A stretch of 30,793 nt of DNA, from IMG/VR virus record IMGVR_UViG_3300044638_008875, positions 1-30,793 of that record; one strand, 5' to 3'. Positions 8,603-30,493 of the stretch are shown piece by piece. A program made the position numbers and the translations under genes. Source of the DNA: a virus. The notes below the pieces were generated by a model. The model had not been told where the DNA came from. It saw nothing but the letters and a program-made list of their open reading frames with translations, and ran no database searches. How positions within the stretch are numbered: the first letter of the stretch is position 1; every line of letters starts with the position of its first letter.

Positions 8603-8627
8603 TTTTTTTAAATTTTATTTAAAAAAA
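8603..8627. repeat. 25-base AT-rich dyad, copy 1
   Basis: TTTTTTTAAA and TTTAAAAAAA are perfect ten-base arms around TTTTA. The identical 25 bases recur at 13175-13199, and a shorter reversed-centre variant occurs at 12263-12284, in all three cases just upstream of a -35 box. It may act as an UP element, an activator site or a bidirectional terminator of the preceding transcript. Confidence 0.6.
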
Positions 8628-8630
8628 GTG

Positions 8631-8658
8631 TTGACAACATAAAAAGATGATTTATATT
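8631..8658 (+). promoter_or_regulatory. Rightward promoter of the ibrAB-like operon
   Basis: TTGACA at 8631-8636, 16 bases, then TATATT at 8653-8658. The box sequences and spacing match the promoters at 12291 and 13203. The expected start lies in or just before the palindrome at 8665-8678, so a bound repressor would block initiation. Confidence 0.7.
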
Positions 8659-8664
8659 AACCTT

Positions 8665-8678
8665 ATCGAAATTTCGAT
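8665..8678. promoter_or_regulatory. Palindromic operator ATCGAAATTTCGAT
   Basis: A perfect 14-base palindrome seven bases after the -10 box. Close relatives occur in the same place after the promoters at 12291, 13203 and (diverged) 22582. The repeated position makes a dimeric regulator site likely. The regulator itself is not identified. Confidence 0.65.
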
Positions 8679-8703
8679 TATTAATTAACAACTACTTAAA
8701 ACT

Positions 8704-8979
8704 ATGTGGAAACAAATTACAGCAAATTCTAATCTAATTCAAACCGAAACCGAAAAAGCGGTTTTAATCAAATTACCAAAAAAAGAGTTAATGTTTTGGC
8801 ATCCTGCTAAGCTTGTAAGAACCAATGGCAAATCAAGCTATCGTTTAACCTTTAGCTACACCGACGAATTTAAATTCAAATGCTTTAGAAATGGCAAGGG
8901 AAAAACAACATCTTTTACTAAAATAGAAGAGGTCGAGTATACCGCAAAGCAAATAGAAGAGATATTTAACAAAGAGTAA
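8704..8979 (+). CDS. Small unknown protein, first gene of the ibrAB-like operon
   Basis: A 91-residue, basic, beta-rich protein of unknown function. The segment [20 protein letters not shown], then WHPAKLV resembles IIHQTAKATLFLFSETEIWL, then PNSRF in the next protein, which suggests that the two are diverged relatives of one fold (QT-x-KA followed by two strands and W/P). The ATG lies 26 bases after the operator. No catalytic motif is seen. It may be an accessory or regulatory part of the operon. Confidence 0.75.
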
Positions 8980-8980
8980 T

Positions 8981-9238
8981 ATGCAAGAAAAGAAACCTTG
9001 GGTTCGTGCTAAATACAAAGATATTATTCACCAAACTGCAAAAGCAACATTATTCTTATTTAGCGAAACGGAAATATGGTTGCCAAATTCAAGATTTAGG
9101 TTTGGTAAAAACAATTATATCAATCTGCCCGAAGATTTGGCGGTAGAAAAAAGAATAAACTGGAGCGATATTTATCACCAGCCAGATAAGATTGAGCCGA
9201 TTTTCAATCAGCAAGCAATTGAGGAATTGAAAATATGA
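8981..9238 (+). CDS. Small unknown protein, probable relative of the preceding one
   Basis: An 85-residue protein starting one base after the preceding stop codon. It shares the pattern HQTAKATLFLFSETEIWLPN with the preceding protein and ends in a helical segment (FNQQAIEELKI). The last four bases overlap the start of the IbrA-like gene (ATGA), so the three genes are translationally coupled. I do not recognise a named family. A role linked to the downstream PAPS-reductase-like protein is inferred only from the coupling. Confidence 0.75.
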   Translation: MQEKKPWVRAKYKDIIHQTAKATLFLFSETEIWLPNSRFRFGKNNYINLPEDLAVEKRINWSDIYHQPDKIEPIFNQQAIEELKI

Positions 9239-10527
9239 AAAAATATTTAGATACGAATGTTTATGAGGCTTCGCAAGATAGATTGAAATTTATTTTTGAT
9301 AATTTCGAGCGAGTTTATTTATCTTTTAGTGGCGGCAAAGATAGCGGGGTAATGCTTAACCTTACCCTTGATTATATGCGAGCTAATAATATTAAAGAAA
9401 AAATAGGGGTTTTAGTAGTCGATTTAGAAGGGCAATACAAGGCAACAATTGACTATATCTTAAACACTATTGACAGCAACCTTGACTTAATAGAGCCTTA
9501 TTTTGTTTGCCTTCCTCTTACTCTTCGTAATGCCGTTAGTGTCTTTAACCCTTTTTGGACTTGCTGGGATAGTGAGCAACAAGACAAGTGGATAAGGCAA
9601 ATGCCAATTCGTGACTATGTTATTTCTAGTCTTGATTATTTTGATTTTTTTAAAGAAAAAATGGAGTTTGAGGAATTTACACCAGCCTTTGGCAAGTGGT
9701 TTTCACAAGGAAAAACAACAGCTTGTTTAGTTGGCATTAGGAGCGATGAGAGTTTAAATAGATACCGAACAATTGCTAGTAAAGAAAAAAAGATGTTTCA
9801 AGATAAAATTTGGACTACTGCAATAAATCAAAATCTTTTTAATTGTTACCCTATTTACGACTGGACTACTGAAGATATATGGGTTGGCAATGCTAAATTT
9901 AACTGGGATTACAACAAAGTTTATGATTTGTTTTGGAAAGCTGGCTTGTCAATTACTAATCAAAGAATTTGTCAACCTTATGGCGACGATCAAAGAATAG
10001 GATTAGCATTGTTTCGAGTAATAGAGCAGGACACTTGGGCTAAGGTTGTTAATAGAGTATCAGGAGCTAATTTTGGCAATATCTATTGTGGCGAGAAAAT
10101 TATGGGATATGGCAAGGTAAAATTGCCAAAAGGTAATACTTGGAAAAGTTATACAAAATTATTGCTTTCAACATTACCGCCAGAGCTTTCAATTCACTAT
10201 AAGAAAAGATTTATAAAGTTTATGAAATATTGGAATAAAAAAGGCTGTCCAGTTCGTAATAATCTTGAAAACAAATTGCCAGAAGGTGCAAAAATATTAG
10301 AAAAAACATCTACAAGAGGCAAAAAAGATAAAAAGCTTTTAGTCTATACAAAAATTAATGATTGTCTAGATGCGAAAATTGAAAGTGCAAAATTAGCTCC
10401 GACTTGGCGGAGAATGGCAATTTGTATTCTTAAAAACGATCATTTATGCAAAACAATTTCATTTACTCAAACTAAACAACAGCAAGAGCGAATGAAAGAA
10501 TTATTAACAAAATACAAAAATTTATAA
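9235..10527 (+). CDS. ibrA: IbrA-like PAPS reductase-family (DUF3440) protein
   Basis: A 430-residue protein. The N-terminal PP-loop ATPase/adenylyl-transfer motif is YLSFSGGKDSGVMLNLTLDY. Further family segments are TACLVGIRSDESLNRYRTIA, YPIYDWTTEDIWVG, and the DUF3440-type C-terminal part (QRIGLALFRVIEQDTWAKVV, then NRVSGANFGNIYCGEKIMGY). IbrA of enteric bacteria is known with IbrB as a regulator of prophage genes; the biochemical reaction is unsettled. The PP-loop fold is shared with DndC and SspD, which act in DNA phosphorothioation. An ATP-dependent sulfur or adenylation step on nucleic acid is possible but is inference. It is followed by its usual ParB-fold partner with a one-base overlap. 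Confidence 0.87.
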   Translation: MKKYLDTNVYEASQDRLKFIFDNFERVYLSFSGGKDSGVMLNLTLDYMRANNIKEKIGVLVVDLEGQYKATIDYILNTIDSNLDLIEPYFVCLPLTLRNAVSVFNPFWTCWDSEQQDKWIRQMPIRDYVISSLDYFDFFKEKMEFEEFTPAFGKWFSQGKTTACLVGIRSDESLNRYRTIASKEKKMFQDKIWTTAINQNLFNCYPIYDWTTEDIWVGNAKFNWDYNKVYDLFWKAGLSITNQRICQPYGDDQRIGLALFRVIEQDTWAKVVNRVSGANFGNIYCGEKIMGYGKVKLPKGNTWKSYTKLLLSTLPPELSIHYKKRFIKFMKYWNKKGCPVRNNLENKLPEGAKILEKTSTRGKKDKKLLVYTKINDCLDAKIESAKLAPTWRRMAICILKNDHLCKTISFTQTKQQQERMKELLTKYKNL

Positions 10528-11030
10528 TGAAAAGTCCAGTCTACAATGTTATTGCAGTTTCAGTAGAAAAAATACAAGCTAATGCATACAACCCTAACAG
10601 TGTTGCTTCGCCTGAGATGAAGTTGCTATATGAATCAATCTTGAATGATGGCTACACAATGCCAATTGTTTGTTATTATTTAGCAGATATTGATAAATAT
10701 GAGATAGTGGACGGCTTCCACAGATACACAATTATCAATAAACACAAAGATATTTACGAAAGAGAGGGCGGAAAATTACCAGTTGTAGTAATAGAAAAAG
10801 ATATTAGCAACAGAATGGCTTCGACTATTAGACATAATAGGGCTAGGGGTTCGCACTCAGTAGACTTGATGTCAAATATTGTTGCCGAGCTATTAGAAAT
10901 GGGTAAAAGCGATAAATGGATTGCTAAACATCTTGGAATGGATGCCGACGAGCTTTTAAGATTAAAACAAATTACAGGTCTAGCTTCATTATTTAAAGAT
11001 AAGGAATTTTCTAAATCTTGGGAAGTTTAG
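10527..11030 (+). CDS. ibrB: IbrB-like ParB-domain protein
   Basis: A 167-residue ParB-fold protein: VEKIQANAYNPNSVASPEMK, DGYTMPIVCYYLADIDKYEI, the conserved VDGFHRYTII, and the family segment STIRHNRARGSHSVDLMSNI. The C-terminal helices (GKSDKWIAKHLGMDADELLR) look like a DNA-binding HTH. It overlaps ibrA by one base and the helicase by 13, so the three are one coupled unit. IbrB is the known partner of IbrA. It differs from the ParB-like protein at 7926-8528, which has a different C-terminal half. Confidence 0.87.
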   Translation: MKSPVYNVIAVSVEKIQANAYNPNSVASPEMKLLYESILNDGYTMPIVCYYLADIDKYEIVDGFHRYTIINKHKDIYEREGGKLPVVVIEKDISNRMASTIRHNRARGSHSVDLMSNIVAELLEMGKSDKWIAKHLGMDADELLRLKQITGLASLFKDKEFSKSWEV

Positions 11031-12262
11031 TAGTAAAAAATTTTGATTATCAAAAACAAGCGGTCGATAAGCTAAGCAAGTTAAAAGCAGGCATCTTATT
11101 TATGTCGATGGGGACAGGCAAAACAAAGGTTGCAATGGACTTGGTGTTATCAAAACAGAATGATATCGATTGCATAATTTGGATTGCCCCTGCCTCGCTT
11201 ATAAAATCACAATCTTATGTTGCAGAAATAGAAAAATGGAGCTTTGGCTTAACAAAACAAATTCATTATTTCTCAATCGAGAGCATTGCTAGTAGCGACA
11301 GCAAATACCTTAATCTTATAAATCTTGCTAAAAATAGCTTCTGCATTGTCGACGAAAGCATAACAATAAAGAACTCTACAGCTAAAAGAACCGAGCGACT
11401 TATTAACAATTGGCATTTATTCAAGTTTAGGCTAATACTAAACGGAACACCAATCACCAATAGCTTGTTAGATTTATACTCGCAGGTGCAATTTATTCAC
11501 CCTAAAATCTTGGCAATGACAGAGACACAATTTGCCAATAATTTCTTGATATACAAAAAAGAAGGATACCGAAGTTATGCTAGAGGTAATAAATCATTTA
11601 ACGAGCAAGCATTAATTGAGATTATCAAGCCGTATATTTTTGATGCGGAATTGCAAATAGATGCAAAAATAAAGTATATTGATTTTCAATGCTATCTTAA
11701 CTCAATCGAGCGAGGCGAGTATAATGCTTATAAAAAACAGGTTTTAGAATATAAATTTGATGATAACAACAGCTTTTTAGCAATAGCTCAAGCCCTACAG
11801 CACCATTACACCGAGAAATGTTTTGATAAATTAGAAAAATTTACGGAATTAGTCAAGACAATCGAGGGTCAGGTTATTATCTATGTTAAATATATCAGCG
11901 AACTAGATTACCTAAAAGCAAATTATGATTGTGTTGAATATTCTGGCAGGTGTAAAGACGGAATAGAATTATTCAAAAACGGAGCGAAAATACTTATTTG
12001 CACTTACGGAAGCGGTAGCTTGGGGCATAATTTACAATTTTGCAACAATATTATTTATTTATCACAAACATTTGATTACAAAGACAAAGAGCAAAGCCTA
12101 CACAGGATATATCGAATTGGTCAAAAAAAACAATGCAATATCTATAATTTTTATGTAAATACTGGACTTGAGGATATTATTAAAAGCAGTCTAGACAAGA
12201 AAATTAACACTCTAGCCGAGATAAAAAACTGCATATCGAAAGAAAATATTAAAAATTTATAA
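11018..12262 (+). CDS. SNF2-type helicase/translocase (TTG start)
   Basis: A 414-residue superfamily 2 ATPase. Motif I is FMSMGTGKTKVAMDLV, motif II CIVDESITIKN, motif III LILNGTPITNSLLDLYSQVQ. The C-terminal RecA-like domain has GAKILICTYGSGSLGHNLQF (motif V) and QSLHRIYRIGQKKQCNIYNF (motif VI), which are typical of SNF2 proteins. It is short for the family and lacks accessory domains. No ATG is near the N-terminus; TTG at 11018, preceded by AAGGA, gives GSLVVKNFDYQKQAVDKL. The 13-base overlap with ibrB supports it. It may move along or remodel DNA for the IbrA/IbrB pair or for replication. Confidence 0.88.
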   Translation: MGSLVVKNFDYQKQAVDKLSKLKAGILFMSMGTGKTKVAMDLVLSKQNDIDCIIWIAPASLIKSQSYVAEIEKWSFGLTKQIHYFSIESIASSDSKYLNLINLAKNSFCIVDESITIKNSTAKRTERLINNWHLFKFRLILNGTPITNSLLDLYSQVQFIHPKILAMTETQFANNFLIYKKEGYRSYARGNKSFNEQALIEIIKPYIFDAELQIDAKIKYIDFQCYLNSIERGEYNAYKKQVLEYKFDDNNSFLAIAQALQHHYTEKCFDKLEKFTELVKTIEGQVIIYVKYISELDYLKANYDCVEYSGRCKDGIELFKNGAKILICTYGSGSLGHNLQFCNNIIYLSQTFDYKDKEQSLHRIYRIGQKKQCNIYNFYVNTGLEDIIKSSLDKKINTLAEIKNCISKENIKNL

Positions 12263-12284
12263 TTTTTTTAAATAAAATTTAAAA
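12263..12284. repeat. AT-rich dyad upstream of a -35 box, variant copy
   Basis: TTTTTTTAAATAAAATTTAAAA. The core TTTAAATAAAATTTAAA is the exact reverse complement of the 17-base core found at 8603-8627 and 13175-13199. It directly follows the helicase stop codon and precedes TTGACA by six bases. Confidence 0.5.
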
Positions 12285-12290
12285 TAACCG

Positions 12291-12318
12291 TTGACACAAT
12301 AAAAAAAGCATTTATATT
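12291..12318 (+). promoter_or_regulatory. Promoter of the small early genes at 12371
   Basis: TTGACA at 12291-12296, 16-base spacer, TATATT at 12313-12318. The layout is identical to the promoter at 8631, including the AAAAAAGnATTTATATTAA spacer end. Confidence 0.7.
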
Positions 12319-12323
12319 AATGA

Positions 12324-12337
12324 TATCGATTTCGATA
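12324..12337. promoter_or_regulatory. Palindromic operator TATCGATTTCGATA
   Basis: Half-sites TATCGA and TCGATA flank TT, five bases after the -10 box. The half-sites are the same as at 8665 and 13236, but the spacing is two bases shorter, which may change affinity or place the two monomers on different faces of the helix. Confidence 0.6.
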
Positions 12338-12370
12338 ATTTGCAACTTAAAAAAACAAACTAAAAACAAA

Positions 12371-12616
12371 ATGAAAAAACTAATGTTAATAAATCTATTA
12401 TTAAAGACAGTAGATGCCGTCGATACTAATACTCAATTATTATTAAGAAATATTAATGCCGACGAAGTTTTAAAAGAGGGCGGCTTAGATTTTATTAAAG
12501 ATTTTGCCGCAATTAATTATTTACAAGTAGAGATACTAGAAAAAATTAAAAAAGAATTAGACGATTTGGCGGATGCCGAAGCCGAAGCATTGTATCAACT
12601 AAAAATGAACTCGTAA
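12371..12616 (+). CDS. Small helical protein of unknown function
   Basis: An 81-residue acidic, mainly helical protein (LLLKTVDAVDTNTQLLLRNI; KKELDDLADAEAEALYQL). An in-frame ATG at 12320 would place the operator inside the coding sequence and at the transcription start, so the ATG at 12371, after an A-rich leader (AAAACAAACTAAAAACAAA), is preferred. The stop codon shares one base with the next start codon (TAATG). No family is recognised. Confidence 0.7.
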   Translation: MKKLMLINLLLKTVDAVDTNTQLLLRNINADEVLKEGGLDFIKDFAAINYLQVEILEKIKKELDDLADAEAEALYQLKMNS

Positions 12617-12948
12617 TGTTAGAAAAAATCAAAACCGAACAATTAGCTAAAGCCACAGAATTTGTGGCTAGCTATGATATTAACCAGCTCAAGAATAGTA
12701 TCGGGAGCTATTACAAGACTAATGCTTATATTAATTATGCAATAGGCAAAATGGAAAATGAAGGCAAAGAAATAATAAACTCGAGAATGCTAGCTCGCCA
12801 ACTAAAATTTAAAAAATATTTTGATATTGTCAAAAAGCATAATTTAACCATTGGCGACGAAGCAGAAATTATGAAATTGTGTAAAATCAACAGGAATGAT
12901 TGCATTCTTTTTTGTTATTATCTTCTTGCAAAAACTAACTCAAACTAA
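12616..12948 (+). CDS. Unknown helical protein
   Basis: A 110-residue basic helical protein coupled to the preceding gene by TAATG. It contains INSRMLARQLKFKKYFDIV, then KKHNLTIGDEAEIMKLCK, and ends in a more hydrophobic cysteine-containing segment (CILFCYYLLAKTNSN). No known family or motif is recognised. A DNA-binding role is possible from its charge but not supported further. Confidence 0.7.
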   Translation: MLEKIKTEQLAKATEFVASYDINQLKNSIGSYYKTNAYINYAIGKMENEGKEIINSRMLARQLKFKKYFDIVKKHNLTIGDEAEIMKLCKINRNDCILFCYYLLAKTNSN

Positions 12949-12950
12949 CT

Positions 12951-13163
12951 ATGAAACTAAAAATAATTTTAACATTCCTTTTTATCGCTGGCTGTAGTGA
13001 AGAGATTTATAAAGCTAACGAAAATCTTAAGGCAGAAGATGTAGTAATAAGACCAGAAGATGTCGACGGCTTCGATTGTGTTGGTGGCTATTGCACTGCA
13101 AAAAATATCGAGTGCAACGAGACACGGTGTGTCTATGAAAGCAATTTAGAAAGTGTTTATTAA
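12951..13163 (+). CDS. Small cysteine-rich lipoprotein
   Basis: A 70-residue protein with a short signal sequence (MKLKIILTFLFIAGC) ending in a lipobox-like FIAGC, so the mature form would begin at Cys15 and be lipid-anchored. The mature part is acidic and has four further cysteines (FDCVGGYCTAKNIECNETRC), which could form two disulfides outside the cytoplasm. Small phage lipoproteins can act in superinfection exclusion or as outer spanins. This gene lies among early genes and not beside a recognisable lysis gene, so exclusion is somewhat more likely (inference). Confidence 0.75.
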   Translation: MKLKIILTFLFIAGCSEEIYKANENLKAEDVVIRPEDVDGFDCVGGYCTAKNIECNETRCVYESNLESVY

Positions 13164-13174
13164 AAAATTTAAAC

Positions 13175-13199
13175 TTTTTTTAAATTTTATTTAAAAAAA
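13175..13199. repeat. 25-base AT-rich dyad, copy 2
   Basis: Identical over all 25 bases to 8603-8627 and again just upstream (three bases) of a TTGACA box. In an AT-rich genome simple runs are common, but an exact 25-base match in the same position relative to a promoter is unlikely to be chance. Confidence 0.6.
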
Positions 13200-13202
13200 C
13201 CC

Positions 13203-13230
13203 TTGACAAAATAAAAAAAGAGTTCATAAT
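13203..13230 (+). promoter_or_regulatory. Promoter upstream of the gene at 13286
   Basis: TTGACA at 13203-13208, 16-base spacer, CATAAT at 13225-13230. Same layout as the promoters at 8631 and 12291. Confidence 0.7.
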
Positions 13231-13235
13231 AAAGA

Positions 13236-13251
13236 TATCGAAATTTCGATA
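13236..13251. promoter_or_regulatory. Palindromic operator TATCGAAATTTCGATA
   Basis: A perfect 16-base palindrome five bases after the -10 box. It contains the full 14-base palindrome found at 8665-8678 and is the longest member of the set. Confidence 0.7.
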
Positions 13252-13285: not shown

Positions 13286-13504
13286 ATGAAAATAATAATT
13301 AATGACTACTTCAGCATCGTAAAAAAACCTGCTGGAGTAGACAATGATATTATCCTTGCCGATGATATTGGAGTGGTGGAGCAAGAATTTCTTGACACTG
13401 CGGAACAAAAAATAACTAACGAAAATGGCGAGGTTGTCAATATTTATGAGGTTTTAGGATCGCTTAAAATTGACGGCAAAACTATTTATTTTATTAAAAT
13501 TTAA
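13286..13504 (+). CDS. Small unknown protein
   Basis: A 72-residue acidic, beta-rich protein (MKIIINDYFSIVKKPAGVDN; then KIDGKTIYFIKI at the C-terminus). No family is recognised. It is the first gene after an operator-controlled promoter; a tiny frame (ATGAAAACATTATGA at 13275) precedes it. After the stop codon, another frame stays open to 13641 without an ATG. Confidence 0.65.
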   Translation: MKIIINDYFSIVKKPAGVDNDIILADDIGVVEQEFLDTAEQKITNENGEVVNIYEVLGSLKIDGKTIYFIKI

Positions 13505-13642: not shown

Positions 13643-13670
13643 TTGACTTATTTTTTTAATCAATAATAAT
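13643..13670 (+). promoter_or_regulatory. Promoter of the replication gene block
   Basis: TTGACT at 13643-13648 (preceded by C), 16-base spacer, AATAAT at 13665-13670. The start would be near 13677. A TTG codon at 13675 could in principle begin translation, but it would coincide with the transcription start. Confidence 0.55.
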
Positions 13671-15561: not shown

Positions 15562-15590
15562 TTGACTCTTATCTTTTTATTATTTATACT
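15562..15590 (+). promoter_or_regulatory. Promoter of the DUF4116/recT block
   Basis: TTGACT at 15562-15567, 17-base spacer, TATACT at 15585-15590, about 20 bases after the DUF1064 stop codon. The sequence is close to consensus. Confidence 0.7.
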
Positions 15591-15597
15591 AGTTTTG

Positions 15598-15612
15598 TAA
15601 GAATTTTTCTTA
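15598..15612. promoter_or_regulatory. Operator of second type, TAAGAA-TTT-TTCTTA
   Basis: A perfect six-base inverted repeat seven bases after the -10 box. A close relative, TAAGA-TTTTT-TCTTA, lies in the same place after the promoter at 19336. The two sites share flanking TTATTAATTA and differ from the ATCGA operators, so they may bind a second regulator. Confidence 0.55.
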
Positions 15613-15642: not shown

Positions 15643-16248
15643 ATGAAAATGACAAATACAAAATATTGGTGGGACAACAAAGAATTTGTTCTTAAGGCTG
15701 TTAAGGTAAGTGGCGGGGATTTGCGATTTGCAAGTGAGGAGCTAAGAGGAGATAAAGAAATTGTTTTGGAGGCTGTAAAGGTAAATGGTAGAGCTTTAGA
15801 ATATGCGAGTGAAGAGCTAAGAGGCGATAAGGAAGTAGTTCTTGAGGCGGTTAAGGAAGAGGGTTCTGCTTTGGAATATGCTAGTGAGGAGCTTAGAGGC
15901 GATAAAGATGTGGTTCTTGAGACTGTTAAGGAAGATGGTTTTAGTTTGCGATTTGCTAGTGAGGAGCTACAAAATGATAAAGAAGTTGTTCTTGAGGCGG
16001 TTAGGCGAAATGGTTATGCTTTACCATATGCAAGCGAGGAGCTACAAAACGATAAAGAGGTGGCTCTTGAGGCTGTTAGGCGAGATGGTGAAGCTTTACA
16101 CTATGCAAGTGTAGAGCTACAAAATGATAAAGAGGTTGTTCTTGAGGCAATAATCAATAACTGGAATGTTTTTGATTGTGTTAGTTTCGAAATGAGAAAA
16201 GCAATTCAAGAAGAAATGAAAAAATTATTAAAAAACAACTTAAACTAA
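15643..16248 (+). CDS. DUF4116 tandem-repeat protein 1
   Basis: A 201-residue protein made of about seven 25-residue repeats with consensus DKEVVLEAVKxNGxALxYASEELxx, followed by a short basic helix. The repeats match DUF4116, a helical repeat known mainly from large viruses, protists and some intracellular bacteria, with no established activity; repeat arrays like this usually bind proteins. A second in-frame ATG at 15649 would give the same MTNT start as the two sister proteins and may be the true start. The next gene begins seven bases after the stop codon. DNA of the repeats is 75 bases per unit and could recombine. Confidence 0.85.
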   Translation: MKMTNTKYWWDNKEFVLKAVKVSGGDLRFASEELRGDKEIVLEAVKVNGRALEYASEELRGDKEVVLEAVKEEGSALEYASEELRGDKDVVLETVKEDGFSLRFASEELQNDKEVVLEAVRRNGYALPYASEELQNDKEVALEAVRRDGEALHYASVELQNDKEVVLEAIINNWNVFDCVSFEMRKAIQEEMKKLLKNNLN

Positions 16249-16255
16249 AAACAAA

Positions 16256-16771
16256 ATGACAAATACAGAAAATTGGAATAATAAAGAATTTGTTCTTAAT
16301 GAAGTAAAGGAAAATGGTTATACTTTAGAATATGCGAGTAAGGAGTTAAAAAATGATAAAGAAGTAGTTTTGAAGGCAGTTAAGCGAAGTGCTTGGGCTT
16401 TAGAATATGCAAGTGAGGAGCTAAAAAATAATAAAGAGGTAGTTTTGGAGGCAGTTAAGCGAAATGGTCGGGCTTTGAAATATGCTAGTGAGGAGCTAAA
16501 AAATAATAAAGAAGTAGTTCTTGAGGCAGTAAAAGAATATGCTTGGGCTTTAGAATATGCGAGTGAGGAGCTACGGAATGATAAAGAGGTTGTTTTGTCG
16601 TCTTTAAAAGAAAATCTTTGGAATCATTTATTTAGTAGTGATAGTGATTGTGGCATGAACCATCTTTCAAGTGAGGACTACGACAGCTGTAACAGCTGGT
16701 GCCGTGTAAAGAACGAGATTTTTAGTGCTTTACTATATGCAAAGATTGACTTAGAACAAAACAACAAATAA
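16256..16771 (+). CDS. DUF4116 tandem-repeat protein 2 with distinct C-terminus
   Basis: A 171-residue sister of the preceding protein, starting MTNTENWNNKEFVLNEVKEN. It has about five 25-residue DUF4116 repeats and then a different, cysteine-containing C-terminal segment of about 55 residues (SSDSDCGMNHLSSEDYDSCN), where the repeats decay. Near-identical N-termini of the three sisters show duplication within this phage lineage. The function is unknown. The different tail could give a different partner or act as an anchor. Confidence 0.85.
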   Translation: MTNTENWNNKEFVLNEVKENGYTLEYASKELKNDKEVVLKAVKRSAWALEYASEELKNNKEVVLEAVKRNGRALKYASEELKNNKEVVLEAVKEYAWALEYASEELRNDKEVVLSSLKENLWNHLFSSDSDCGMNHLSSEDYDSCNSWCRVKNEIFSALLYAKIDLEQNNK

Positions 16772-17697: not shown

Positions 17698-18279
17698 ATG
17701 ACAAATACAGAAAATTGGAACGATAAAGACTTTGTTCTGGAGAAAGTTGAGCAAAATGGCTTGGCTTTGGAATATGCAAGTGAAGAGTTGCAGAATGATA
17801 AAGAGGTAGTTCTTAAGGCGGTAAAACAAGATAGTCGGGCTTTAAGAGTTGCTAGCAAAGAACTAAGAAGCGATAAAGAGGTTGTTTTAGAAGCAGTGAA
17901 ACAACTTGGGCTTGCTTTAGGATATGCAAGCAAAGAGCTAAGAAATGATAAAGAGGTTGTTCTTAAAGCAATTTGGCAAAGAGGCGATGCTTTACAATAT
18001 GCAAGTGATGAATTGAAAAATGATAAAGAGTTTGTTTTGAAAGTAGTAAGGCAAGGTGGTTATGATTTAGGATATGTAAGTAAGGGGTTGCAGAACGATA
18101 AAGAAGTAGTTTTGGAAGCAGTGAAACAATGTGGTCGGGCTTTGAAATATGCAAGCGAAGAGCTAAAAAATGATAGAGATGTAGTTATTAAGGCAATAAT
18201 TAGTGACTGGGATGCTTTTAAGTATGCTAGTTTTAAAATAAAAAAAGCAATTCAAGAATTATTAATAAAAGGATTATAA
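17698..18279 (+). CDS. DUF4116 tandem-repeat protein 3
   Basis: A 193-residue protein with about seven DUF4116 repeats, beginning MTNTENWNDKDFVLEKVEQN six bases after recT. The repeat consensus is the same as in the sisters at 15643 and 16256, but with more diverged units (KEFVLKVVRQGGYDLGYVSK). The last unit and tail (KKAIQELLIKGL) match the end of the first sister (KAIQEEMKKLL), so proteins 1 and 3 are the closest pair. Its place between recT and the exonuclease suggests either a link to recombination or tolerated insertion of a duplicating gene. Confidence 0.85.
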   Translation: MTNTENWNDKDFVLEKVEQNGLALEYASEELQNDKEVVLKAVKQDSRALRVASKELRSDKEVVLEAVKQLGLALGYASKELRNDKEVVLKAIWQRGDALQYASDELKNDKEFVLKVVRQGGYDLGYVSKGLQNDKEVVLEAVKQCGRALKYASEELKNDRDVVIKAIISDWDAFKYASFKIKKAIQELLIKGL

Positions 18280-18283
18280 AAAC

Positions 18284-19339
18284 ATGAAAAATAGATTTCA
18301 AATTATCGGAGCCAGTGAAGTTGCTGGCTTATTAAAAGAATATGCTGGCAATTTACTTGCCGAAAACATTATCAACGAAGAGCAATTTAATAAAATCTCT
18401 AAAATGCCGAGTTATCTTGAAACAAGATATTCTTTAGCAAAAAAATTAGAAATGAACGAAGTGTATTTTGAAAAATATTCAAAATCTATGGAAAATGAAG
18501 CTATGCAAAGGGGTAAAGATTGCGAGCAAATGGTTGCAGAAGATTATTTAGCAACAACCAATGCAAAAATAGTTGAAGAGCAAACTAGTGTAGATGATTT
18601 AATTACTGGAACTATTTTTCCTTTTAGGGCAACTATTGATTACATTCTTGATAATGGCAAAATTCTTGAGATTAAAACAACGGCAATTAGCCAATGGGAA
18701 TTTAACTGTGGAGATGATGATAGTTATAGAATGCCTTATAATTATTATATTCAAGTGCAGGCACAGATGTGGATGCATAAGAAAGAAGAGGCGATAATAT
18801 ATATTGCTGGTATCGAAACTGTAAAAAACGGCAAAGATAAAAGTTATAATATTTTGCAAACTAAATCATTCGAATTAAAAAAAGATAATGCAATAATTAA
18901 GGCAATAAAAACTTCGCTTATTTGGTTTAGTTACGAATTTAAAAAAGGAGTTTTATTTAATAAGGCGGAAGAGAATAAAACTGCAAAAGACAAGCAAATA
19001 GATGAGTTCTTAATCCACGAGGCTGACACGGTAGACATAGAGCCAAATGATAATCTTACTTATAAAATAGCAAGATTAAAAGAAATAGAGGCTTTTGTAA
19101 AAGAATATGAAAAACTAGAAAAAGAAATAAAAGAAGAAATTAAAGCGACAATGCAAAATTTACAAAAAGGTAGAGCAAGAATTAGTCACAATTCTTATAA
19201 TGTTGAAGCTAAATTTAGCAAAACATCTTTTCATACCGAAGAGACAATTACTTCTGCTATTGAAAAAGTAAAAAAACTTAATGTTGGCGATGTATCTTCG
19301 CCTGCAAAATTTTTATTAAAAATTAATAATTTTATTTGA
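18284..19339 (+). CDS. YqaJ-type phage exonuclease
   Basis: A 351-residue nuclease of the YqaJ/lambda Exo-like fold. Visible motifs are AMQRGKDCEQMVAEDYLATT (active-site glutamates), FRATIDYILDNGKILEIKTT (the D-x(n)-E-x-K core, with EIKTT) and YYIQVQAQMWMHKKEEAIIY (the conserved Q-x-Q). The C-terminal 100 residues are helical and basic. It degrades one strand of duplex DNA to produce tails for RecT. The start is four bases after DUF4116 protein 3. The TGA stop lies inside the -35 box of the next promoter. Confidence 0.9.
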   Translation: MKNRFQIIGASEVAGLLKEYAGNLLAENIINEEQFNKISKMPSYLETRYSLAKKLEMNEVYFEKYSKSMENEAMQRGKDCEQMVAEDYLATTNAKIVEEQTSVDDLITGTIFPFRATIDYILDNGKILEIKTTAISQWEFNCGDDDSYRMPYNYYIQVQAQMWMHKKEEAIIYIAGIETVKNGKDKSYNILQTKSFELKKDNAIIKAIKTSLIWFSYEFKKGVLFNKAEENKTAKDKQIDEFLIHEADTVDIEPNDNLTYKIARLKEIEAFVKEYEKLEKEIKEEIKATMQNLQKGRARISHNSYNVEAKFSKTSFHTEETITSAIEKVKKLNVGDVSSPAKFLLKINNFI

Positions 19340-19364
19340 CTATTAAAAATTATTTGTTTAAATA
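19336..19364 (+). promoter_or_regulatory. Promoter of the accessory block at 19420
   Basis: TTGACT at 19336-19341 overlaps the exonuclease stop codon; a 17-base spacer leads to TAAATA at 19359-19364. Confidence 0.55.
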
Positions 19365-19370
19365 GGTTTA

Positions 19371-19385
19371 TAAGATTTTTTCTTA
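19371..19385. promoter_or_regulatory. Operator of second type, TAAGA-TTTTT-TCTTA
   Basis: Perfect five-base arms seven bases after the -10 box; matches the site at 15598 in sequence and position, and is followed by the same TTATTAATTA. Confidence 0.5.
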
Positions 19386-19407
19386 TTAATTAATTATTAA
19401 CAAAACT

Positions 19408-19419: not shown

Positions 19420-19848
19420 ATGTCGATGCAACAACTTATAGAAAATTGGAACTTAGAGCAAAAAAGAATTTCTGCAGAGGAGTATTGCTTAGGAAGTTTA
19501 ATTGAAGATTTAAAAAATATAAAATCTGATTTAATTGTCGAAATTGATAATGGAAAATTTCCTTCTAGAGAGTATTTATCTATTTTTTACAGCTGGAGAG
19601 GTAGATATTGTGAGTTGGCAATGGAATTTAGCGATAATAACCAGAATATAACTGTTAATGATTTATTAGAAAAGGCTGAGTTGGTTAATGGAAAATATCT
19701 TTTTGGCTTCAAGGGTGGACGGTATTTAATGGACTTAGAAACCCCAATTCATATTGCAAATTATGGCACTTCTGGAAATATAAAACTAATTGGAGTTTAC
19801 GAACATAACGGAAAGGCTATTTTAAAAACAAGAATTGAGGATGAGTAA
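19420..19848 (+). CDS. Conserved phage protein of unknown function (YKGG-type)
   Basis: A 142-residue protein whose pattern I know from many phages without an assigned function: an N-terminal helix (LGSLIEDLKNIKSD) leading to a strand with FPSREYLSIFYSWRGRYCEL, then VNDLLEKAELVNGKYLFGFK with GGRYLMD, and a strand with TPIHIANYGTSG. The start is set by the strong Shine-Dalgarno site. The end overlaps the next start codon by one base. Usually it is found among early accessory genes. Confidence 0.7.
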   Translation: MSMQQLIENWNLEQKRISAEEYCLGSLIEDLKNIKSDLIVEIDNGKFPSREYLSIFYSWRGRYCELAMEFSDNNQNITVNDLLEKAELVNGKYLFGFKGGRYLMDLETPIHIANYGTSGNIKLIGVYEHNGKAILKTRIEDE

Positions 19849-20459
19849 TGTATTTGCAAGAACTTATAATACAAAGCGAAAAATTAGCTCAAGCAATAGT
19901 TTTAGCTAAATTAAAAAACAATAAAAACTATGATTTAAAAAATTGTTTTAAATATATTCCGCCAGACGACCCCGTTTTATTTTTGTATAAAAAAGATTTG
20001 AAACTTTTTCAAAAATATTTTAAAAGTCATATCGGGCTTTATGTTGACGATAACAAAGACGAAGAAATTTTTATTGCAAATGATATAAAATCACTTGTTG
20101 AAGGCATAGCGGAAGTAAAAACAAGACCCGTCACAATATTCTTGTCAATAGCGGATAGTCAAACTTTTATAAAAGCAAATGATATTGCCAAAAAGTTAAA
20201 AGAAAAATATGGAGTTGAAAAAGTAAATGTTTTTGCATTGCATTGTTTTGTGGAAAACCCACCGCCTGATTGGGCTATTGTAAATCAAGATGGTTCGTTT
20301 GGTTATTTTGATGAAAAAGAGCAAAAAATGAAAAATGCTTGGTTTGATAAGCTAATAACTACAAACTCGATGGGTATTCTTAAAGTTGAAAACAGTGAAA
20401 GGTTACAGGTTATCGATTGCTCTGATATTTTTAACGATTATTTAAAACAAAAAAACTAA
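19848..20459 (+). CDS. Degenerate PRPP synthetase/phosphoribosyltransferase-like protein 1
   Basis: A 203-residue protein related to the one at 25645. The C-terminal two thirds follow the layout of PRPP synthetase: a strand and helix (VTIFLSIADSQTFIKANDIA, where an enzyme has the acidic PRPP loop), KYGVEKVNVFALHCFV, and WFDKLITTNSMGILKV with ERLQVIDCSDIFNDYL, matching the T-N-T region and closing helix of the family. The PRPP loop acids are mostly gone and the N-terminal PRPP synthetase domain is missing, so catalysis is doubtful. A regulatory or ligand-binding role is possible. It starts in the stop codon of the preceding gene. Confidence 0.55.
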   Translation: MYLQELIIQSEKLAQAIVLAKLKNNKNYDLKNCFKYIPPDDPVLFLYKKDLKLFQKYFKSHIGLYVDDNKDEEIFIANDIKSLVEGIAEVKTRPVTIFLSIADSQTFIKANDIAKKLKEKYGVEKVNVFALHCFVENPPPDWAIVNQDGSFGYFDEKEQKMKNAWFDKLITTNSMGILKVENSERLQVIDCSDIFNDYLKQKN

Positions 20460-21531: not shown

Positions 21532-21804
21532 ATGAAATATTTTATCGTATTATTTATTATTATTAAACCAATTTTAATCTTAATAGGATTATCCTTAATA
21601 ATTAATGAATTTAAAACTAAACAAACATCATCATTTTATTTTGGTTTTATGCTTGGATTATCATTATGTTTATTAATATTGATGTTATTAGCAGATAATT
21701 ATATGCAAGCTTTTTTTAAAGAATTAAAAGATAATAATAATTATGAAAAAAGAGATAAAAAACTACCAACAAAAATAAAAACTATTTATGACAAAAAAAA
21801 TTAA
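21532..21804 (+). CDS. Small two-helix membrane protein
   Basis: A 90-residue protein with two or three hydrophobic segments (YFIVLFIIIKPILILIGLSL; FYFGFMLGLSLCLLILMLLA) and a basic C-terminal tail (KRDKKLPTKIKTIYDKKN). It shares the segment PILILIGL-LII-EFKTKQ-SSFYFGFMLG with the chimeric protein upstream. It ends within the next gene (17-base overlap). A holin or exclusion role is conceivable for any such small membrane protein, but nothing here supports a choice. Confidence 0.65.
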   Translation: MKYFIVLFIIIKPILILIGLSLIINEFKTKQTSSFYFGFMLGLSLCLLILMLLADNYMQAFFKELKDNNNYEKRDKKLPTKIKTIYDKKN

Positions 21805-22581: not shown

Positions 22582-22609
22582 TTGACACTAAAGAAATACT
22601 TGTTAATAT
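22582..22609 (+). promoter_or_regulatory. Promoter of the gene at 22668
   Basis: TTGACA at 22582-22587 (C before it), 16-base spacer, TAATAT at 22604-22609, as at 8631. Confidence 0.68.
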
Positions 22610-22613
22610 TACC

Positions 22614-22635
22614 TTATCACAATTTATTGCGATAA
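22614..22635. promoter_or_regulatory. Diverged palindromic operator TTATC...GATAA
   Basis: TTATC-x-CAA-TTTA-TTG-x-GATAA is an imperfect dyad placed five bases after the -10 box and preceded by ACC as at 8661. It shares TATC/GATA half-site ends with the ATCGA operators but differs in the centre, so it may have weaker or different binding. Confidence 0.5.
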
Positions 22636-23041: not shown

Positions 23042-23069
23042 TTGACAATAAAAATAGTTAAGTTAAAAT
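23042..23069 (+). promoter_or_regulatory. Promoter of the envelope-protein block
   Basis: TTGACA at 23042-23047 (C before it), 16-base spacer, TAAAAT at 23064-23069, directly after the terminator. Confidence 0.7.
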
Positions 23070-23073
23070 AATC

Positions 23074-23090
23074 TTGTAATTAAATTACAA
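23074..23090. promoter_or_regulatory. Palindrome TTGTAAT-TAA-ATTACAA
   Basis: Perfect seven-base arms, four bases after the -10 box. Same position as the other operators but a different sequence, so either a separate regulator or a diverged site. Confidence 0.5.
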
Positions 23091-25644: not shown

Positions 25645-26343
25645 ATGATAACAAAAATTTATCACAAAAAAAACGAACTATTCAATATTGAGTTTTTTAA
25701 AAATGAAGGATGCAGTGAACCTTTTGAATTTTTAAATGAAAAAAGTTTATATATTAAATTAAAAGCAGGCGATATAACTCCGTTTTTAGAAATTTATAAA
25801 TATTCCCAATTCCGAGATATATATCTACCATACTTTCCAAATATCGATACTCTTGATTATCTGCCAAGCTTAGAAAATATATACACTTTGGACGACATCA
25901 CCGTCGATCTTTCAAAATACATACCAGAAGATAATGCTGTGTTATTTTTGAGTGAGGAGGATAAAGAAAAATACAAAAACTCTTTTTTATCACATCATAG
26001 AGGTTGGCATCCAACAACAACTATCTTCATCTCTCACGGCACAGAAACCAAACTTAAAGAAGTAATCGAATTAGCAAAAAGCTTAAAAAAACAATGCGGA
26101 GTTAAAGAGGTAAATTTGTTTGTTTTACATTGTTTTATAAGTTTATACGGCGGAGAAAGTTATATAAATTCGTTTGTTTCAAAAGGCGATGATTTTCCAG
26201 AATTTTACTCATTTGGAGATTTTTTTAACAAAATCATAACAACAAACTCAACGGGTATGTCGCTTATTCAAAATAAAGAGCGGTTGCAAATTATCGATTG
26301 CTACGATATTTTTAACGATTATTTGCAAAACAAAAATGAATAA
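25645..26343 (+). CDS. Degenerate PRPP synthetase-like protein 2
   Basis: A 232-residue protein with the full layout of a short PRPP synthetase: FKNEGCSEPFEFLNEKSLYI, the near-canonical FRDIYLPYFPNIDTLDYL (family: LPYFPYARQDR), KYIPEDNAVLFLSEEDKEKY, TTIFISHGTETKLKEVIELA at the PRPP-loop position, VKEVNLFVLHCF, and FNKIITTNSTGMSLIQN with ERLQIIDCYDIFNDYL. The R-Q-D-R motif and the acidic PRPP loop are replaced, so it is probably not an active synthetase. The C-terminal 130 residues match the protein at 19848. It overlaps the next gene by eight bases. Confidence 0.6.
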   Translation: MITKIYHKKNELFNIEFFKNEGCSEPFEFLNEKSLYIKLKAGDITPFLEIYKYSQFRDIYLPYFPNIDTLDYLPSLENIYTLDDITVDLSKYIPEDNAVLFLSEEDKEKYKNSFLSHHRGWHPTTTIFISHGTETKLKEVIELAKSLKKQCGVKEVNLFVLHCFISLYGGESYINSFVSKGDDFPEFYSFGDFFNKIITTNSTGMSLIQNKERLQIIDCYDIFNDYLQNKNE

Positions 26344-28191: not shown

Positions 28192-28220
28192 TTGACTTAT
28201 TAAACAAAATAATCAATAAT
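28192..28220 (+). promoter_or_regulatory. Promoter of ssb
   Basis: TTGACT at 28192-28197 (C before it), 17-base spacer, AATAAT at 28215-28220. A weaker inverted repeat (TTTACA/TGTAAA at 28168-28185) lies upstream. Confidence 0.6.
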
Positions 28221-28224
28221 TGGG

Positions 28225-28242
28225 TTGTTGCAAAGGCAACAA
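28225..28242. promoter_or_regulatory. Palindrome TTGTTGC-AAAG-GCAACAA before ssb
   Basis: Perfect seven-base arms begin four bases after the -10 box. In RNA it would form a stable stem at the very 5' end of the ssb message. It could be an operator, a stabilising 5' hairpin or an autoregulatory site. Confidence 0.5.
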
Positions 28243-28267: not shown

Positions 28268-28666
28268 ATGTCAATAAACAAAGTAATACTCGTAGGTAAT
28301 GTAGGTCAAGAGCCAGAAATAAGAAACACCCAAGATGGTCGTGAAATTGCTAGTTTTTCTATTGCAACTACCGAAAGTTGGAAAGACAAAAACAGTGGCG
28401 AAAAAAAAGAAAAAACCGAATGGCACCGTATTGTTATTTTCTCTCCTAATCTAGTTTCTGTTGTCAAATTATATGTCAAAAAAGGAAGCAAGCTTTACAT
28501 CGAGGGAGCTATACAAACTCGTAAATGGAAAGATAATGCTGGTGTAGAAAAATACACTACCGAAGTTGTATTACAGCAGTATAATTCTACTTTGCAAATT
28601 CTAAGCAATAATCAAAACCAAGCGGAAACAACAGAGCAAGAGACTGAGGAAGACTTTATTTTTTAA
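28268..28666 (+). CDS. ssb: Single-stranded DNA-binding protein
   Basis: A 132-residue SSB with the OB-fold pattern: MSINKVILVGNVGQEPEIRN, FSIATTESWKDKNSG, TEWHRIVIFSPNLVSVVKLY, VKKGSKLYIEGAIQTRKWKD and YTTEVVLQQYN. The short acidic tail ends in EEDFIF, a variant of the usual DDDIPF tip that binds partner proteins. It protects single strands in replication and works with RecT and the exonuclease. It has its own promoter with a palindrome in the leader. Confidence 0.95.
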   Translation: MSINKVILVGNVGQEPEIRNTQDGREIASFSIATTESWKDKNSGEKKEKTEWHRIVIFSPNLVSVVKLYVKKGSKLYIEGAIQTRKWKDNAGVEKYTTEVVLQQYNSTLQILSNNQNQAETTEQETEEDFIF

Positions 28667-30464: not shown

Positions 30465-30493
30465 TTGACAAAAGTAATATTAAGATTTAAAAT
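30465..30493 (+). promoter_or_regulatory. Strong promoter before a GC-rich non-coding stretch
   Basis: TTGACA at 30465-30470, exactly 17 bases, TAAAAT at 30488-30493. It is the best consensus promoter in the window, yet no convincing gene follows. The start would be near 30500. Confidence 0.65.

Follow-up and report, generated by a model that had tools for sequence, protein, structure and literature searches.

Dyads at phage promoters are known from lambdoid immunity, in which repressors bind operators whose sequence is phage-specific. Sequence-independent stem-loops at the 5' end of a transcript shield ompA mRNA and the gene 10 mRNA of T7, where the stem-loop comes from a 21-bp segment of the phi10 promoter that raised reporter output fourfold (PMC2254391). 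The 5'-terminal stem-loop stabilisers of Escherichia coli ompA and papA have been reviewed (PMC3997798, PMC7509114), and RppH-type enzymes require unpaired 5' nucleotides (PMC3997798; PMC4227774). Recurrent cassettes of promoter plus stem-loop include the T4-type PeSLs and the promoter-plus-inverted-repeat motif of HGTV-1, as far as the papers citing them describe these (PMC4503421, PMC3950731). Here we analysed the uncultured phage of the viral record IMGVR_UViG_3300044638_008875, the whole stretch of which, 30,793 nucleotides (nt), is called the window. Three of its operons begin with a promoter followed by an ATCGA..TCGAT palindrome, which an initial annotation had read as the operator of one phage regulon. 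We propose that the palindrome probably acts as a hairpin at the 5' end of the transcript, which recasts an apparent regulon with an unknown regulator as a testable RNA-stability device.

Hairpins at the promoters of the window

The three modules lie at 8631, 12291 and 13203, exactly as the initial annotation had placed them, and like all promoters, hairpins and operons of the window described here they are on the plus strand. They read TTGACA-16-TATATT-AACCT-TATCGAAATTTCGATT, TTGACA-16-TATATT-AATGA-TATCGATTTCGATA and TTGACA-16-CATAAT-AAAGA-TATCGAAATTTCGATA, respectively. The palindrome begins 5-6 nt past the -10 box in all three, and this spacing agrees with the earlier proposal that it covers the expected transcription start. 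A search for ATCGA(0-6)TCGAT found exactly three matches in the 30.8-kb window (8665, 12325 and 13237), all at these promoters and none elsewhere, against 0.13 expected; none of 100 shuffles reached three. The whole layout TTGACA..NATANT..TATCG likewise matched three times, against 0.00 expected. The three-module observation is confirmed as real and beyond chance.

Promoter 1 (8631-8658, TTGACA-16-TATATT) agrees with the sigma-70 consensus at 11 of 12 positions. It is preceded by a UP-element-like block (8608-8629) and followed by hairpin 1 (TATCGAAATTTCGATT, 8664-8679, core 8665-8678), with a predicted RNA fold of -3.2 kcal/mol. Promoter 2 (12291-12318, TTGACA-16-TATATT) stands between its block at 12268-12289 and hairpin 2 (TATCGATTTCGATA, 12324-12337, predicted -3.4 kcal/mol), the middle of which is two bases shorter. 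Promoter 3 (13203-13230, TTGACA-16-CATAAT) has its block at 13180-13201 and hairpin 3 (TATCGAAATTTCGATA) at 13236-13251, with a predicted energy of -4.8 kcal/mol and a z score of -3.75. The spacing between the ATCGA and TCGAT half-sites is accordingly 4, 2 and 4 nt. The three blocks match 13, 11 and 13 of the 13 specified positions of the UP-element consensus NNAAAWWTWTTTTNNNAAANNN, whereas shuffled intergenic sequence matches 8.3 on average (standard deviation, sd, 1.7). The UP element is strong at these modules only, and the remaining window cassettes score about background. Beyond the hexamers, the repeat unit extends over about 90-122 nt with 77-83% identity among the modules, including the upstream AT block. 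Because the repeat has this length and includes the UP element, the modules appear to be copies of a single strong promoter cassette that was duplicated whole inside this phage. An exact search of viral contigs for TTGACA plus TATCGAAATTTCGATA gave no match.

Listing every TTGAC box in the window yielded five further promoters, at 15562, 19336, 22582, 23042 and 28192, with hairpins of differing sequence 3-7 nt past the -10 box. The first, TTGACT-17-TATACT with TAAGAATTTTTCTTA (15562-15612, hairpin 15598-15612), has a p value of about 0.04 against leader shuffles. The second combines TTGACT-17-TAAATA, a weak -10 box, with TAAGATTTTTTCTTA (19336-19385, hairpin 19371-19385). Its paralogue at 22582-22635 is TTGACA-17-AATATT with TTATCACAATTTATTGCGATAA (hairpin 22614-22635). 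TTGACA-16-TAAAAT with TTGTAATTAAATTACAA (23042-23090, hairpin 23074-23090) has a z score of -3.2, and TTGACT-17-AATAAT with TTGTTGCAAAGGCAACAA (28192-28242, hairpin 28225-28242, -7.5 kcal/mol) precedes the SSB gene at 28268. The 15562, 19336 and 22582 cassettes are paralogues with common flanks, but at 22582 the hairpin differs entirely, although this cassette is 72% identical to the one at 19336 over 99 nt. Of two promoter-like sites, the one at 30465 lacks a hairpin and the one at 13643 has a weak hairpin only.

In the same position behind the -10 box, the eight window promoters have between them at least five hairpins of unrelated sequence. ATCGA is present at three of them and unrelated hairpins at the other five, a pattern that does not fit the proposed single regulon under one DNA-binding regulator. 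When leaders were folded as RNA from the predicted start, the hairpin lay at the extreme 5' end and was followed by open A/U-rich sequence. The summed fold energy of ten window leaders was -37.1 kcal/mol, compared with -7.1 kcal/mol (sd 3.4) for dinucleotide shuffles. The stems contain one to three G-C pairs and are not followed by a T-run, and a loose terminator rule picks out 28225-28242 alone.

Hairpins in related phages

We also picked intergenic promoters by their -35 and -10 boxes and a downstream ATG alone, and computed the fold energy of a sliding 24-nt segment. In a close group of 33 promoters from five related phages, the flanks mostly stayed near -0.3 kcal/mol and a dip to a mean of -2.90 kcal/mol started 4 nt past the -10 box; shuffled leaders of this group gave -0.38 kcal/mol (sd 0.13). 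No dip appeared in a more distant group of 23 promoters (-0.42 kcal/mol). A search based on SSB yielded mostly unrelated phages, which served as controls, and the 23 promoters from unrelated AT-rich phages showed no comparable signal (-0.80 against -0.62 kcal/mol shuffled). The hairpin feature is real, is tied to the predicted transcription start and is limited to this lineage as sampled. With the start placed from the -10 box, the stem-loop is predicted at about +1 of the transcript.

Four related phages were compared, here called L004 (with L127), L006, L008 (with L128-L130) and L028 (with L131-L133; phage G003). The promoter of the gene 8704 orthologue carries TATCGAAATTTCGATT in the window, TATCAAAAAAAATTTTGATA in L004, TATCAAGTATTTGCTTGATA in L006 and TTGTCAAGAGTTCTTGACAA in L008, all about 5 nt past the -10 box. 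The initial annotation had named a lack of conservation upstream of orthologous operons as grounds for rejecting its reading; at the sequence level this is the case, with other palindromes in that place in L004, L006 and L008. In the alignment of these leaders from four phages, 97% of cells pair and four of the nine pairs are altered on both sides. Covariation was 0.48; shuffles gave 0.22, with 3 of 500 reaching the observed value, and slid versions of the alignment stayed at or below 0.09. Coming from four sequences only, these values are suggestive of pairing that is kept while the letters change. Within a phage, stems are reused, and they differ between phages: ATCGA occurs three times in the window, ATCAAG three times in L006 (spacing 7, 6 and 7) and GTCAAG twice in L008.

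The 19336 cassette recurs outside the window. L133:1029-1124 is 90% identical to window positions 19309-19404 over 97 nt, and a different gene stands behind it; this copy sits directly after thyX. Other leader forms were seen among the relatives. At L131:2822, GGGGGGTTGCCACCGCCCCCC and a T-run come immediately after a promoter and form a terminator-like hairpin where transcription would start. A leader at L128:128 contains ATCGATTTCGAT with no adjoining TTGACA box. The leaders at L005:3707, L009:7439 and L038:3982 have a common TTTTTAACAAATTTA-type start and no hairpin, and are possibly an alternative leader type.

A proposed transcript hairpin and its alternatives

We consider it probable, at roughly 60%, that these elements are strong promoter/leader cassettes whose transcripts carry a sequence-independent 5'-terminal stem-loop against decay. 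The cassettes would be strong promoter/leader units for host sigma-70, with near-consensus -35 and -10 boxes and, in three cases, a UP element. The palindrome would work mainly as RNA, so that the transcript opens with a short stem-loop and few or no unpaired 5' nucleotides. Such a stem-loop should slow decay that depends on the 5' end, whether by RNase J or by RNase E after an RppH-type enzyme has removed pyrophosphate, and should keep the leader open to ribosomes. Under this proposal the hairpin sequence drifts between promoters and between phages because pairing and position alone matter. Strong promoters, 5' hairpins and open leaders would together give high-output expression with 5'-end protection. 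We infer the transcription starts, the formation of the hairpin in vivo and the stabilisation of the mRNA. The best large-terminase relatives in genomes reached 49% identity and came from mixed taxa, and so pointed to no one host; decay of this kind in the host is assumed. A wider proposal, in which the lineage puts a hairpin "cap" of free sequence on most host-polymerase transcripts, replaces Shine-Dalgarno-driven protection in a low-Shine-Dalgarno host and has spread it as a mobile promoter/leader cassette, is tentative and somewhat doubtful.

Several observations count against a role as RNA. With energies from -1.4 to -8.8 kcal/mol, the hairpins are short and rich in A and U, and the 19336 and 15562 leaders beat their shuffles weakly. 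Among the relatives, L009 has a promoter at gene 8704 but no hairpin, L005 lacks a promoter at this gene, and the SSB promoter of G003 has no hairpin. DNA operators are dyads too, so pairing by itself is no argument against them. Internal mismatches, which were meant to separate RNA from DNA symmetry, numbered three G.U and two A.C in a count by eye, too few to do so. Were the start about 8 nt away from its predicted place, part of the hairpin would go untranscribed, or the hairpin would lie inside the transcript. Reuse of stems within one phage, at +1, would also be explained by a regulator.

Such a regulator, a phage or host repressor that binds the ATCGA dyad and shuts the three operons, with other operators elsewhere and specificities that differ between relatives as in lambdoid immunity types, is rather unlikely in our judgement. 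The ATCGA palindrome has no further copy in the window, its three sites stand at +1, a classic repressor position, and stems that are common within a phage and different between phages would suit a repressor. A small winged-helix-like open reading frame (ORF) at 21788, which the initial annotation had suggested as regulator, is a candidate. Its resemblance to winged-helix proteins is too weak for a call: the predicted structure is a weak model (pLDDT 60), and its matches in the PDB, mostly winged-helix proteins, all have E values above 0.3. Against its part as regulator, an 88% homologue occurs in G003 (L028), a phage with ATCGA at none of its promoters and a lone ATCGA dyad away from any promoter. 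A Pfam scan found no known repressor domain among the window proteins tested. The half-site spacing varies within a phage (4, 2 and 4 in the window; 7, 6 and 7 in L006), and a rigid dimer normally does not tolerate this in a fixed operator. The window alone would demand at least five regulators, and paralogous cassettes keep their flanks while the palindrome changes. Repression through several operators by different regulators is the strongest competing reading. The variable spacing, the many unrelated dyads and the exchange of hairpins between kept flanks favour RNA. So does the anchoring of the hairpin, whose 5' base is the best placed part (mean 5.6 nt past the -10 box, sd 1.4; the centre has an sd of 2.0 and the 3' end one of 3.1), although the search window partly biases this figure.

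The hairpins might instead be RNA sites for a phage protein or for RNA polymerase, similar to boxB/nut or put, and serve antitermination or a phage-specific boost. They do head operons, and stems are often common within one phage and different between phages, yet we regard this as improbable. Loop length and sequence vary inside one phage, which has many unrelated stems, and the sites stand at +1 and not further downstream. The window has no excess of terminator-like sites over shuffles, and a search of Rfam returned no known family. We judge it about equally improbable that the hairpins have no function and arise incidentally from an AT-rich start of the transcribed region or from the recent duplication of one palindrome. 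AT-rich DNA readily yields short palindromes, and recent duplication accounts for three of the eight copies; nevertheless, these leaders are rarely matched when shuffled with their dinucleotides preserved, AT-rich leaders of other phages lack the signal, and pairing outlasts the replacement of sequence in orthologues. If the preferred explanation of a protective transcript hairpin is true, this phage family uses structure-only 5' hairpins at most strong promoters, its cassettes offer ready-made promoter/leader parts, and a palindrome at a phage start site is not necessarily an operator.

Operons behind the modules and comparison with known systems

Operon 1 (8704-12262) encodes a PHROG 27058 protein, a small ORF product, a PAPS reductase-DUF3440 protein, a ParB-like protein and an SNF2-type helicase. 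Operon 2 (12371-13163) consists of three small ORFs. Its first start was moved to the ATG at 12371 because the ATG at 12320 sits upstream of the predicted transcript start. The first gene of operon 3 (13286-13504) has no assigned function. The leaders of the ATCGA modules are A/U-rich, unstructured and without a Shine-Dalgarno sequence, and place the AUG about 36-55 nt past the predicted start. Across the window, Shine-Dalgarno pairing of -5 kcal/mol or stronger was found at 4 of 48 gene starts, compared with 4% of shuffles, and is not above the shuffled level. A strong Shine-Dalgarno sequence (TGGAGGG) at 19420 stands out amid this near-absence. Elsewhere in the window, the ORFs at 15643-16248, 16256-16771 and 17698-18279 are built of 25-residue repeats; the first matched DUF4116 (five repeats), and the other two have this repeat in common with it by sequence. 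Small genes or parts of genes are also duplicated in the phage, namely 19848-20459 with 25645-26343, and 21175, 21532 and 22668 (repeat families D2, D7 and D11).

The elements share promoter dyads of phage-specific sequence with lambdoid immunity, and differ from it in their variable half-site spacing, in the several unrelated dyads per phage and in that no repressor was found among the scanned proteins. Unlike in boxB/nut or put sites, the loop is not conserved within a phage. As with the PeSLs and the HGTV-1 motif, promoter and stem-loop form cassettes ahead of different genes, here through the duplications in the window and the copy of the 19336 cassette in L133. The PeSLs are promoter-terminator motifs according to the title of their description, whereas the window hairpins lie downstream of the -10 box and have no terminator T-run. 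In the T7 phi10/gene 10 leader, a short stem-loop likewise comes straight after a phage promoter, at the 5' end of the transcript as is predicted here; in T7 it raises mRNA stability and expression. T7 relies on a polymerase of its own and on a strong Shine-Dalgarno sequence, in contrast to the host-type sigma-70 promoters, the lack of a Shine-Dalgarno sequence and the many unrelated hairpin sequences of the window phage. With ompA and papA the elements would share a sequence-independent stem-loop at the 5' end, which blocks decay in those mRNAs and may do so here. Those are single host genes, whereas the hairpins described here are used repeatedly across a phage genome.

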